Shown one piece after another: positions 28,748-34,982 of a stretch of 52,756 nt of DNA. Under the pieces are notes generated by a model. That model saw only the letters and a program-made list of their open reading frames with translations. It was not told the DNA's origin and made no database searches. Positions within the stretch are counted from its first letter, which is position 1; every line of letters starts with the position of its first letter. Source of the stretch: Phycisphaerae bacterium (GTDB lineage Bacteria > Planctomycetota > Phycisphaerae > JAAYCJ01); assembly GCA_012729815.1 (NCBI GenBank), contig JAAYCJ010000198.1, positions 1 to 52,756 on the forward strand, written 5' to 3'. Made by a program: the position numbers and the translations under genes.

Positions 28748-28763
28748 GCCAGTTCTGACAACT

Positions 28764-28834
28764 GGGGACGTGGTGTAATGGGAGCACGCCGCGGTCGCAT
28801 CGCGGAAATGAGGGTTCGACTCCCTTCGTCTCCA
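28764..28834 (+). tRNA. tRNA-Ala (anticodon CGC), atypical
   Basis: A complete cloverleaf can be drawn. The acceptor stem GGGGACG/CGTCTCC contains a G3-U70 wobble, the alanine identity element. The D arm is GTGT/GCAC, the anticodon stem CCGCG/CGCGG with loop GTCGCAT (anticodon CGC, reading GCG), and the T arm GAGGG/CCCTT with loop TTCGACT. The discriminator is A and CCA is not encoded. Odd features: the variable loop has four bases, the loop closes with G32-U38, and the D arm resembles tRNA-Gly or tRNA-Gln rather than bacterial tRNA-Ala. A promoter lies directly upstream. The identity is firm if the gene is functional. Confidence 0.82.
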
Positions 28835-28838
28835 TTCA

Positions 28839-30201: not shown

Positions 30202-31530
30202 TCATCGGATCGCCGTATCGAACAGGACTTCGTACCAGTGGACGAATGTGACCCCGTCGATGGTGCGCCGCGTCTGATCATCGAGGCGGAACCGCTGGCT
30301 CTCGGAGCAACGGCGCTGGCAATAGTGCCGTTGAAGAATGGTCCGTCCCTGTCGGGTGAAGTAGGCCTCGATCAGTGTCGTGTGATCGCCGCTCAGTTCG
30401 CCGTCCAGATAGAAGGTCCGAAGGCAGGTGAACGCGCGGGGACCGACCTTCAGCCGGAACATCCCGCAGCCGATGGCGTCGGGCTCGTATCCGCTCTGGC
30501 GGAAGACGCCGAACGATTCCTCGATGAACCGGCCGCGGTCCTCGATCCGCCGCGGATGCTGACCCCCGTCTCCCTCGAAATCGTCACCGAGGAATGTGAA
30601 TACCTTCCGCATTCCATCGGCGATGCGCGAGACCCCAAGCCACTGGGACTTCTCATCCGTCAGCCGGGCAAACACCGTATCGACAGCCTCGCTCCAGCCG
30701 CCTTTTCGGGTCCATTCGTTGACCTCGACCTCAACGCAATCCACGTGATGCACCTGGGCCGGGCGAACGCTGCGGGTCGATGTGACGCTGGCCAATGTCC
30801 AATCCGGCGGGTCGTACCATCCACCGGACGCTTGGGCGCCGACATCGGGAATGATCGGCCACCACAGCAGTTCTCGTACGCTCACGGCGAAGGGCCTTGC
30901 CCGGCTTGGTTCGATGGTGATTTGCGGCCTTCGCTCGGGGAAATCCGGTTTCCTGTCTTTCTTTGATCCCATGACGATTCTCCTCTCTTGGCGGTCGATC
31001 CCAGCCATGCTCCGTACCATGTTCCTGGCCGCGAACAGTTGTCGCTTCACGGTGCCCTGCGGCCGCCGAATGCGCCGGGCGATCTGGTCGATGCTCAAAC
31101 CCTCCAGGTAGAACATCTCGATCAACTTTCGGTTCTCCGGATGCCGGGATTCGAGGGACTCGAGGATCTCTTCGACAAACTCGGCGGCTTCTGATGGATG
31201 GTCCCCGGACATCGCTGCCTGCAGGTGCGGTTCGATCTCGATCACCGGTCCCTGCCTTGTCGACCGGCGATGGAAGTCCCGGCAGCGGTTGCGGGCGATC
31301 TGGAGGAGCCATGCCCGAAAGTGAGCGGGTTGGCGCAAAGTGCCGACGCCTCGCCATGCCTGCAGAAGCGTCTCTTGAAGCACGTCCTCAATCGAGGCGG
31401 GGTCGCGGACCTCGTACCGGACCAGGGCGGTCAGCACACGCTCGTTGCGGCGGACCAACTCCACGAACGCCCGGGCGTCACCGACTGCGCTGTGCCTGAC
31501 AAGTTGTTCATCGGAAATGTTCGGTGCCAT
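30202..31530 (-). CDS. ECF sigma factor fused in frame to a C-terminal domain of unknown function
   Basis: Residues 1-~185 are an ECF sigma-70 factor: region 2 (ARAFVELVRRNERVL to FRAWLLQIARNRCRDFHRR) and region 4 (RKLIEMFYLEGLSIDQIARRI, TVKRQLFAARNMV). Without a stop codon the frame continues for 256 residues starting at MGSKKDRKPDF, a soluble segment with no membrane helix and no family I recognise (WWPIIPDVGAQASGGWYDPP near its start, HCYC-type cysteines near the end). ATG 31530 has GGAG eight bases upstream; an ATG at 31551 is in frame. An internal ATG at 30972 has its own strong ribosome site (see separate entry), so two products are possible. Confidence 0.8.
   Translation of the reverse strand: MAPNISDEQLVRHSAVGDARAFVELVRRNERVLTALVRYEVRDPASIEDVLQETLLQAWRGVGTLRQPAHFRAWLLQIARNRCRDFHRRSTRQGPVIEIEPHLQAAMSGDHPSEAAEFVEEILESLESRHPENRKLIEMFYLEGLSIDQIARRIRRPQGTVKRQLFAARNMVRSMAGIDRQERRIVMGSKKDRKPDFPERRPQITIEPSRARPFAVSVRELLWWPIIPDVGAQASGGWYDPPDWTLASVTSTRSVRPAQVHHVDCVEVEVNEWTRKGGWSEAVDTVFARLTDEKSQWLGVSRIADGMRKVFTFLGDDFEGDGGQHPRRIEDRGRFIEESFGVFRQSGYEPDAIGCGMFRLKVGPRAFTCLRTFYLDGELSGDHTTLIEAYFTRQGRTILQRHYCQRRCSESQRFRLDDQTRRTIDGVTFVHWYEVLFDTAIR
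30972..30992 (-). promoter_or_regulatory. Internal ribosome site and ATG inside the sigma-fusion gene
   Basis: On the minus strand AGAGGAGA is followed by six bases and ATG at 30972, exactly at the boundary between the sigma region and the unknown domain. The spacing is ideal, suggesting the C-terminal 256 residues may also be made as a separate protein. Confidence 0.6.
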
Positions 31531-31612
31531 CGCCATGTCTCCATCGTACATGGCGTTGGCGAATGCGGAAAGGTTCGCGAAAAACCCGGATCAGCAACAC
31601 CGTCGCCGGCGG

Positions 31613-32863
31613 TCAGTCGGCGAAGCGTCTGACCACGATGCAAGCGTTGTGGCCGCCGAACCCGAACGAGTTGGAGACCGCCACGTTGATCGTGCCCGGA
31701 CGCGGCTGGTTGGGCACGTAGTCCAGGTCGCACTGCGGGTCCGGATTCTCGAGGTTGACCGTGGGCGGCAGCGTGTCCTTGAGCATGCCCAGGATGGTGG
31801 TGATCAGCTCAGCGCCGCCGCTGGCCCCGAGCAGATGCCCGAGCTGGCTTTTGGTCGAGCTGATCGCCAGCTTGCGGGCGTGGTCGCCGAACACGGCCTT
31901 GACCGCTTTGGTCTCGCCGATATCGCCCAGTTCCGTGCTCGTCCCGTGGGCGTTGATGTACTCGACGTCCTGCGGGTTGACTCCGGCGTCGGCCAGGGCC
32001 CGGCGAAGGGCCATGGCGGCGCCCAGACCGTCGGGCTCCGGCGCGGTCAGGTGATAGGCGTCGGCGCTGGCCCCGAAGCCGAGCACCTCAGCCACGATCG
32101 TCGCGCCGCGGGCCTTGGCGTGTTCGAGCTCTTCAAAGATCAGCACGCCGGCCCCTTCGGCCATGATGAACCCGTCGCGGTCCTTGTCGAACGGGCGGCT
32201 GGCCCGCTGTGGATCGTCGTTGCGGGTCGAGAGCGCCTTCATGGCACAGAAACTCGAGAGGCCCAGGTGGGTCAAGGCGGCTTCGGACCCGCCGGTGAAC
32301 ATCATGTCGCAGTCGTTTCGCTGAATGGCCCGAAGGGCGTCGCCCATGGCGTTGGTCGCCGAGGCGCAGGCGGTGGCCACCGAGGTGTTGATGCCTTTGG
32401 CCCCGAACAGGAGCGAGACGTTGCCCGAGGCGGCGTTGCCCATCAGCTTGGGGATGGTGAACACCGAGACCTTCGAGGGTCCTTTTTCCAGCAGGCGGAC
32501 GTGCTGTTCCTCCAGTTCGGTCAGGCCGCCGATGCCCGACCCGATGATCACGCCGGTCCGCTCCTGATGCTCCGCGGGCAGGGGCATGGACAGGCCGGCG
32601 TTCTTCGCCGCGCTCTGCGCCGCCGCCACCGCGAACTGGGCGAACCGGTCAAGCCGCTTGACGTCCTTGCGGTCGATGTAGCGGGCGGGATCGAAGTCCA
32701 CGCACTCGCCGCCGATCCGCGAGTCGTAGCACGAGGCGTCGAACCGGCGGACCGGACCGATGCCGCTCTTGCACGCGATGATGTTGGACCAGTACGTCTC
32801 CAGGTCTTCGCCCAGAGACGTGACCAGACCCATTCCTGTTATGACAATACGTCGCTTGGCCAT
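31613..32863 (-). CDS. fabF: 3-oxoacyl-[ACP] synthase II
   Basis: FabF condenses malonyl-ACP with acyl-ACP during fatty acid elongation. The 416-residue thiolase-fold enzyme has the Cys-His-His triad: Cys166 (VATACASATN), His306 (NAHGTSTELGD) and His343 (SQLGHLLGASG). Typical length is ~413. It is the last gene of the fabD-fabG-acpP-fabF operon, 45 bases after acpP. Confidence 0.97.
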   Translation of the reverse strand: MAKRRIVITGMGLVTSLGEDLETYWSNIIACKSGIGPVRRFDASCYDSRIGGECVDFDPARYIDRKDVKRLDRFAQFAVAAAQSAAKNAGLSMPLPAEHQERTGVIIGSGIGGLTELEEQHVRLLEKGPSKVSVFTIPKLMGNAASGNVSLLFGAKGINTSVATACASATNAMGDALRAIQRNDCDMMFTGGSEAALTHLGLSSFCAMKALSTRNDDPQRASRPFDKDRDGFIMAEGAGVLIFEELEHAKARGATIVAEVLGFGASADAYHLTAPEPDGLGAAMALRRALADAGVNPQDVEYINAHGTSTELGDIGETKAVKAVFGDHARKLAISSTKSQLGHLLGASGGAELITTILGMLKDTLPPTVNLENPDPQCDLDYVPNQPRPGTINVAVSNSFGFGGHNACIVVRRFAD

Positions 32864-32908
32864 CTGCTTACCCAGGGAGGTAGGTTGGACGGTCGCTTCA
32901 GGGGCGCC

Positions 32909-33172
32909 TCAGGACTGCTGCTGCTGTTTGTCGATGTGCTCGGTGATGTAGTCGATCGCCATGCCGACGGTCTGGATCTTCTCGGCCTCCTCGTCGGGAA
33001 TGTTCATGTCGAACGCGTCTTCCAGTTCCATGACCAGCTCGACGGTGTCCAGCGAATCCGCGTTCAGGTCGTTGATGAAGGAGGTCTCGCGGCTGATTTC
33101 CGCTTTGTCCACGCCCATCTGCTCGCTGACGATTTCGATCACCTTGCTTTCGACTTCAGTCTTATCTGCCAA
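32909..33172 (-). CDS. acpP: Acyl carrier protein (TTG start)
   Basis: AcpP carries growing acyl chains on a 4'-phosphopantetheine arm attached to Ser40 ([12 protein letters not shown]) by AcpS. The 87-residue acidic helical bundle is complete and slightly long because of a QQQQS tail. No ATG exists at the N-terminus; the start is TTG 33172, seven bases after a perfect AGGAGG ribosome site. A promoter (33245-33273) lies in the gap after fabG, so acpP-fabF may be transcribed both from the operon and separately. Confidence 0.95.
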
Positions 33173-33244
33173 GATCGATCCTCCTAATTGGCATAGCACC
33201 GAAACCCGGGTCCACCACCAGCCTTGTGGTTGCATGGACGCCGT

Positions 33245-33273
33245 AATATACCAAAGCACGCGTACCCGATCAA
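33245..33273 (-). promoter_or_regulatory. Internal promoter for acpP-fabF
   Basis: On the minus strand TTGATC (33273-33268), a 17-base spacer and TATATT (33250-33245) precede acpP by about 70 bases. A small ACCAC/GTGGT hairpin lies in the leader. Extra expression of the abundant ACP would explain it. Confidence 0.5.
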
Positions 33274-33288
33274 AGACTTTTTGCCCCG

Positions 33289-34035
33289 TTACATGAGCAT
33301 TCCGCCGTCCACCACCAGCACCTGCCCGGTGATGTACGAAGCCCCCGGACCGGCCAGAAACCGCACCGCGGCCGCGATTTCCTCCGGCTGGCCGAACCGT
33401 CTGGCCGGAATCATCGGCAGCACCGCCTCCTTGACCTTCTCGGGCAGCACGTCGGTCATGTCCGTGGCGATAAAGCCCGGGGCCACCGCGTTGACGGTCA
33501 CGCCGCGCTTGGCCAGTTCCTTGGCCGCCGATTTGGTCAGGCCGACCATGCCCGCCTTGGCCGCCGCGTAGTTGCACTGCCCGGCGTTGCCGGCGAGGCC
33601 CGAGACGCTGGTGATATTGATGATCCGGCCGCTGCGCTGGCGGATCATGTGCTTTCCCGCCTGGCGCATGGCCACGAAGGCGGATTTAAGATTCACGTTC
33701 AGGACTTCGTCAAACTGGCCGTCGTCCATGCTGATCAGCAGGCCGTCGCGGGTGATGCCCGCGTTGTTGACCAGGATATCGAGTTTTCCGTTGGCCTCAG
33801 CCACTTCGTCGATCGCGGCGGCCAGCGCCGCGGTGTCGGCGATGTCCACCACCTTGGCCTCGACCGAACCGGGCAGGTCCCCGGCCTCCGCAGCCACCGC
33901 GTCGAGCTTCTCCTGATTCCGGGCCATGGCCACCACCTTGGCCCCGGCCCCAGCCAGGGCCAGCACGATCGCCCGGCCGATCCCTCGCGACCCGCCGGTC
34001 ACGATCGCCAGCTTATCCTGCAGTTCCGCGGTCAT
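33289..34035 (-). CDS. fabG: 3-oxoacyl-[ACP] reductase
   Basis: FabG is the NADPH-dependent short-chain dehydrogenase that reduces 3-oxoacyl-ACP. The 248-residue protein shows TGGSRGIG (13-20), NNAG (90-93), catalytic Ser143, Tyr156 and Lys160 (YAAAK), and the C-terminal [19 protein letters not shown] lies five bases before ATG 34035. It follows fabD by 29 bases in the same operon. Confidence 0.97.
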
Positions 34036-34064
34036 CCGCACTCCTTTCGCATGTCTATATATAG

Positions 34065-34982
34065 TCATTTCAGGTCGGCCGACGTGGAAATGTTGGCGGT
34101 TTTGGTCCGGCGGCTGATCCGCTTCATGAACGCGGTCAGCGTCTTTTTCGGCCCCACTTCGACAAACTCGTCCGCCCCCAGCTCCAGCAGCTTCTGCATC
34201 GACTTGGCCCACCAGGTGGCCGAGGTGACCTGCGTATAGAGGCTCCGCCGGATGGCGTCCGGGTCGTCGTGGAACTGGCAATCGACGTTGGCGACCACCG
34301 GGAATTTCGGCTTCGAAAAGGCCGTCTCCTCGAGAATCGGCTTGAGCTTGTCCGCCGCCGACTGCATCAGCGGCGAATGGAACGCCCCAGCCACGTCCAG
34401 GATGACCACCTTCATCGCTCCGGCTGCCTCAGCCGCCCGGGCCGCCCGGTCGATCGCCGCCTTCTGACCGCTCAGGACCACCTGTCCGGGGCAGTTGTAG
34501 TTGGCCACCACCAGCACCTCGCCCTGGCCGGCTTCGCGGCAGATCGCCTCGACCTTCTCGTCGTCCAGGCCGATCACCGCCACCATGCCGCCATCGGTCG
34601 CCTCCGCCGCCTCCTGCATGAATCTGGCCCGGGCCGCCAGCAACTTCAACGCCGAGTCGAAGCCCAACGCCCCAGCCGCGTGATAGGCGGTGTACTCGCC
34701 CAGACTCAACCCGCCCGCGTAGGCGGGCGCCAACTCCCATCGTCCCAGCCCCTTGGCCGCCTCCAGCGCCGCCACCGATGTCACGAAAATCGCCGGCTGC
34801 TGGACGTCGGTGGCGTTGAGCCGCTCAGCCGGTCCGTTGAAGCACAGCTCCGAAATCTTATAGCCGAGCACCTCGTCGGCCCGGTCAAAGACCGCCTTGG
34901 CCGCTGGGTACTCCCGATAGAGATCGGCGCCCATGCCGACCTCCTGAGCGCCCTGACCGGGAAACATCAGTACCGTTGTCAT
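34065..34982 (-). CDS. fabD: Malonyl-CoA:ACP transacylase
   Basis: FabD loads malonyl groups onto ACP. The 305-residue enzyme contains the N-terminal FPGQGAQ, the nucleophile elbow GLSLGE with Ser93, and His202 in AGAFHSPLM. Length is typical. AGGAG precedes ATG 34982. As the first gene of the operon it is the likely start of transcription, with the 419-base upstream gap holding its promoter region. Confidence 0.97.

Follow-up and report, generated by a model that had tools for sequence, protein, structure and literature searches.

A sigma factor gene with a C-terminal extension

The window, i.e., the whole stretch of 52,756 nt that was analyzed, carries on its minus strand a gene (30202-31530) that joins an ECF sigma factor to a C-terminal domain in one reading frame. 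The product has 442 aa when read from the likely start, ATG 31530. An alternative first ATG at 31551 on the same strand would give 449 codons, and the next stop is found only at codon 450. We favor ATG 31530 as the start, because a GGAG (31542-31539) lies 8 nt 5' of it and because ATG 31551 directly adjoins the putative -10 element described below. Pfam detects Sigma-70 region 2 (PF04542, Sigma70_r2; 31255-31458, minus strand; residues 32-99; E 4e-16) and region 4 (PF08281, r4_2, the DNA-binding helix-turn-helix; 31024-31143, minus strand; residues 137-176; E 3e-8), both in the numbering of the 449-aa form. Only these two are present, both within the N-terminal 185 residues, and regions 1 and 3 are absent, which is the makeup of an ECF sigma factor. 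In NCBIfam, the sigma70-ECF model TIGR02937 is matched with 79.5 bits (cut-off 42.9); the score against TIGR02989 is 83.6 bits, under that model's cut-off of 124.6 bits. The initial annotation had placed the end of the sigma part near residue 185, followed by 256 residues with no stop. This holds: both Pfam matches lie before that point and the frame stays open.

The C-terminal domain (30202-30972, minus strand, 256 aa) belongs to no family that we could match. Past residue ~185 there is no match in Pfam (E up to 10), NCBIfam or PHROGs. Against the PDB, phmmer found nothing and a profile search gave only chance-level matches (E at least 0.4). Relatives of the domain are absent from the plasmids, phages and viral contigs searched. 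Related domains may exist in Bacillota. The domain appears soluble, with no TM helix: the maximum 19-residue Kyte-Doolittle mean is 0.77-1.03 across the four domains known to us. Comparison of its two halves by hhalign gave no sign of an internal duplication. The AlphaFold2 models, made from the four sequences with two of them in the lead, consist mostly of beta strands and have pLDDT values of 37.6 and 33.8; thus, the folds cannot be used, and they point only weakly to an all-beta or beta-rich domain. The initial annotation had proposed HMM and structure searches of this region. The HMM part was carried out and gave no family, and the structure part ended with models too poor to assign a fold. 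The top three Foldseek matches were chains of MucB (E 0.17-0.27, probability at most 0.10, TM 0.12, from the query model with pLDDT 37.6), and hhalign of the domain to E. coli RseB returned nothing. A resemblance to MucB/RseB (LolA-like) is kept as a lead only, as the Foldseek matches are not significant and the RseB profile comparison does not support it. In the four-sequence alignment, conserved positions cluster in YDPPDW, TFLD, FTCLR, GRT.L.R.Y and VHWY.

Just upstream of the fusion gene, the window has a same-strand fatty-acid synthesis cluster (31613-34982; fabD, fabG, acpP and fabF, named by eye). The fusion gene starts 82 nt past the fabF stop, and its own putative promoter lies within this gap. 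The sole Rfam or tRNA match in the window is a tRNA-Ala (CGC) gene at 28763-28835. On other contigs of the same genome there are three more extended ECF sigma genes (L003:1225-2964, L007:445-2031 and L005:1474-2775). Their extensions match BNR_2 (sialidase-like), APH phosphotransferase and T2SSF domains, and their sigma parts form one clade in the sigma tree. It is as if one sigma lineage had repeatedly acquired new C-terminal domains.

Fused, split and orphan relatives

We looked for the domain in about 1,090 Planctomycetota genome searches (some genomes were repeated) and also scanned about 85,000 species genomes with a pattern. Three further homologues were found, 41-44% identical to the domain of the window, so that the family is known from four sequences, all of them from draft metagenome assemblies. 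A weak profile match in another genome (L015 in G687) was discarded as spurious, as there is no plausible open frame at that place. The initial annotation had asked whether relatives carry split or fused versions, and the three homologues give one fused, one split and one solitary form. The fused homologue (JAFGJE010000198.1, here G122; 454 aa) comes from the same class but a different family, and its protein is 41% identical to that of the window over both parts. The idea of a fused unit was to be given up if the domain were always separate in relatives and had no functional link to the sigma, and G122 speaks against this. In the split homologue (JAUVVP010000025.1, here L017), a Planctomycetota MAG, sigma and domain are two genes in different frames that overlap by 8 nt (ATGCATAA), with a GGAG 7 nt before the ATG of the domain gene. 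This genome would belong to a class other than that of the window, because its class comprises 75 of the searched genomes versus at least 397 for the window's class. The third homologue is an orphan domain in genome HyVt-337 (DRGC01000097.1, here L018, the genome also labeled G063; L018:5955-6798). A GGAG site precedes it, and no sigma gene lies beside it. The best sigma factor in HyVt-337 scores 51.5 bits against the window's sigma; in the two genomes that have a cognate sigma, the scores are 157 and 114 bits.

When 61 ECF sigmas were placed in a tree, those of the window, G122 and L017 formed a clade with 100/100 support on a long stem, apart from the 58 others. They are mutual best matches, with those 157 and 114 bits set against at most 58 for the other sigmas of the two genomes. 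Among 298 genomes of the class, the G122 sigma reaches 112.6 bits and the next best sigma 80. Judged from these comparisons, the sigma subfamily was found only together with the domain. Since the clade is separate and fully supported, we take sigma and domain to be linked partners and the fusion to be no sequencing error. It is most improbable that a missed stop or an indel, in sequencing or assembly, joined two genes in the window. All four assemblies are draft metagenomes, and in L017 one AG unit would turn the split form into the fused one. However, the same in-frame fusion occurs in G122, an independent assembly at 41% identity, and on this ground sequencing error was rejected as its source; moreover, the junction in the window has no homopolymer and intact frames on either side.

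How the fused state arose can be narrowed to two courses. The sigma tree joins the fused G122 with the split L017 (93/83) and leaves the window outside, and therefore the fused genes of the window and G122 are not sister to each other. This suggests either two fusions or a single fusion and one later split; the domain tree gives only 58% support on the fusion order. At the junction of L017 (L017:5955-5972) there is a short AG repeat (GGAGAGAGAGG), and one extra AG would fuse the genes in frame. Because a single AG unit separates the two states, the step between them is small, and it is possible that the length of the repeat acts as a slippage switch between split and fused forms. The neighborhood is otherwise not conserved: in the window fabF lies upstream, L017 has an lpxK-like gene and G122 has other genes (names given by eye).

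A putative internal start and an upstream motif

At the junction there is a putative internal start. The initial annotation had reported a ribosome site and an ATG exactly at this place, and both were recovered: the internal Shine-Dalgarno sequence AGAGGAGA occupies 30986-30979 on the minus strand and the in-frame ATG 30972-30970, with GGAG 7 nt before the ATG. This ATG aligns with the starts of the stand-alone homologues, and in the alignment the internal ATGs of both fused genes fall within a few residues of the starts of the free proteins. The sequences at the joint are CAAGAGAGGAGAATCGTCATG in the window, AAACCAGGGAGAGTTATCATG in G122, GGAAGGAGAGAGAGGATG in L017 and CCTGAGGAGCAAGTCATG in the orphan L018, and the GGAG-to-ATG spacing is 7, 7, 7 and 6 nt, respectively. 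Thus, the predicted internal Shine-Dalgarno sequence and start are conserved in both fused homologues. By chance, a GGAG placed 5-9 nt before an in-frame ATG occurs at 0.0072 per 15-codon stretch in each genome, as counted in 158 genes from the window's genome and 62 from that of G122. This count was used instead of a duplex-energy score with the whole 16S tail, which proved too blunt (6.6% of internal ATGs came out as strong). Such a site is missing from the junctions of the other three extended ECF genes in the window's genome. The Shine-Dalgarno sequence of the window is spelled by a tandem AGG-AGA Arg pair, which is used for 7 of 419 Arg-Arg pairs.

Between proteins that are 41% identical, saturation of silent sites is expected, and therefore the retention of the ATG and GGAG in both fused genes points, short of proof, to use of the internal start or to two recent fusions. 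The site could also be left over from an ancestor in which the two genes were split. In a rival account, the domain acts within the same chain, as in ECF41, ECF42 and CorE, and the internal Shine-Dalgarno sequence and ATG are an unused remnant of separate genes or a coincidence of the coding sequence. It is well known that C-terminal extensions can act within the chain that carries them (PMC8999054), such a mode requires no separate start, and the three unrelated extended ECF genes in the same genome indicate that the fusion route is common here. Even so, we regard this account as rather doubtful. It has to accommodate two fused genes, 41% identical, that both have an ATG and an equally spaced GGAG where the free homologues begin, and the split relative and the orphan indicate that the domain is viable as a free protein.

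Upstream of the fusion gene, a putative ECF -35 element, GAACCTT (31570-31576, minus strand), is common to the upstream regions of G122 and L017. The putative -10 element, CGCC (31552-31555, minus strand), follows 14 nt past GAACCTT, and the spacing is equal in the three genomes. GAACCTT-N14-CGCC is thus found just before the start of the three sigma genes, and AACCTT lies 39-53 nt before the start in 4 of 4 genes. Before the orphan, the -35-like motif AACCTTTC is kept and CGCC lies two bases further, so that the match is partial. For comparison, 75-mers were drawn at random from these genomes. All four had a 6-mer in common in 109 of 20,000 trials and three had a 7-mer in common in 142 of 20,000; a 7-mer with an equally spaced 4-mer was common to none of 5,000 random triples. 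A scan of the upstream regions for 24-column three-way blocks was matched in score by 3 of 60 shuffles and is not significant alone. No sigma-70-type promoter is visible in the upstream region. An AAC in the -35 element together with a CG in the -10 element is characteristic of ECF promoters (PMC8103513). We suggest that GAACCTT-N14-CGCC is probably an ECF-type promoter, recognized by the sigma factor whose gene it precedes.

Genome searches for GAACCTT-N13-15-CGCC returned 14, 21, 6 and 4 sites, versus 7, 5, 3 and 3 in the reversed control. When 30 sites were examined as loci, nearly all lay within coding frames, and the sigma genes were the clear promoter-like ones. Because the other matches are mostly inside coding frames, no wider regulon can be named, and the pattern fits a promoter aimed mainly at its own gene.

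The solitary domain in HyVt-337 bears on what the domain does. It stands alone behind the AACCTTTC motif in a genome where a cognate sigma was not found, and the conserved positions listed above could belong to a binding or enzymatic domain. From this one might argue that the domain is an effector or sensor, a target co-transcribed under the control of the sigma factor and not its regulator, with the fusion ensuring co-expression. We consider this improbable, since the other two genomes with a sigma of this clade have the domain fused or overlapping, which is the usual layout of a regulator, and since a fusion after region 4 would put the effector on RNA polymerase.

A possible mechanism and its place among known systems

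The reading that we favor, with a probability of about 0.5, is that the ECF sigma factor regulates its own gene and has a soluble cytoplasmic regulator joined to it, which is also made as a free protein by internal initiation. This reading builds on the conserved partnership, the fused and split states, the conserved internal start signals, the common upstream motif and the lack of a TM helix; from these we infer two products, direct binding, a sign of regulation and a ligand. In such a mechanism, the sigma part would recognize GAACCTT-N14-CGCC before its own gene, as the motif common to three genomes suggests. In the resting state, the domain would most likely pack on the sigma-2 and sigma-4 lobes and limit the binding of RNA polymerase. 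The switch would be relieved or triggered by a signal from the cytoplasm, probably a ligand that the predicted beta-rich domain binds. Ribosomes that read the whole gene would make the fused protein, and a second initiation at the internal AGAGGAGA and ATG would make the free domain, which may oligomerize with the fused form or act upon it. In the split relative, overlapping genes would provide a similar coupling.

The sign of the regulation may go either way, as the ECF41 extension and anti-sigma factors inhibit their sigma and the ECF42 extension is required for activity. We lean towards inhibition because of the coupled-pair layout. The initial annotation had likened the gene to a sigma/anti-sigma pair merged into one. 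The partnership and the split and fused forms agree with that view, and a match to a known anti-sigma family does not come with them. The orphan domain, in a genome without a cognate sigma, also calls for caution against a plain anti-sigma reading, and the domain may serve some function independent of its cognate sigma. The broader proposal, in which one gene gives both an ECF sigma carrying its regulator and the regulator alone, the internal start has been retained as the lineage shifted between the split and the fused form, and translation sets the ratio of the two products, remains tentative, and we put its chances a little below even.

At least 26 ECF groups have N- or C-terminal extensions, and for some of these an origin by ancient fusion of a sigma with its anti-sigma factor has been proposed (PMC8999054). 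Like ECF41/SigJ (SnoaL), ECF42 (TPR) and ECF238/CorE (cysteine-rich), the present protein combines a sigma-2/sigma-4 core and a soluble cytoplasmic domain in one chain, and no membrane anti-sigma can be made out within the gene. Unlike in those groups, the domain lies outside the known extension families of Pfam and NCBIfam, a split relative with overlapping genes exists and both fused genes retain a predicted internal start. In these two databases, its members match neither the SnoaL domain of ECF41/ECF56 nor the TPR of ECF42. A CorE-like cysteine-rich domain is also absent, with 5 Cys in 257 residues and Cys in all four sequences at one column only (TCLR). For class I anti-sigma factors (ASD-I/ZAS), there is no Pfam or NCBIfam match and, by inspection, no HxxxCxxC in the alignment, though a structural resemblance below sequence detection may exist. 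As none of the SnoaL, TPR, CorE and class I/ZAS features is found, the gene is, on sequence grounds, a variant of the known ECF-with-extension theme whose partner domain falls outside any described regulator family.

IutY and the sigma/anti-sigma fusions of ECF48, ECF52 and ECF53 (PMC8999054) are alike in that a regulator that is usually the next gene has been merged onto the sigma C-terminus. In contrast to them, the present fusion has no TM helix in the extension, the membrane feature of IutY and ECF52/53, and no zinc-binding anti-sigma motif or sign of proteolytic release; a free regulator would come here from internal translation. In a limited literature search, we found no report that combines an extended ECF sigma with an internally initiated free regulator. 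Because the new and very rare partner domain occurs in a fused, a split and an orphan form, and a promoter is predicted as well, autoregulation and the two-product hypothesis are open to direct test.

Genes within genes that give a C-terminal product are known elsewhere, Cas11d being one. Free C-terminal regulators from internal starts have been described for the Rpn toxins (RpnL/RpnS; PMC10327210), and an internal in-frame start in Cas11b gives a free C-terminal product (PMC11899642). RpnL/RpnS, Cas11d and Cas11b resemble our proposal in that a full-length protein is accompanied by a C-terminal form, made from an internal Shine-Dalgarno sequence and ATG, that acts on or with the long form. 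They differ in that the long form here is a sigma factor and the short form is predicted from sequence; the comparison is one of how the systems would work and implies no homology. If the proposal is right, the gene would represent a third mode of merging a sigma factor with its regulator, beside intramolecular extensions and proteolytically released membrane fusions, in which one gene supplies a fused sigma and, by internal initiation, a free regulator.
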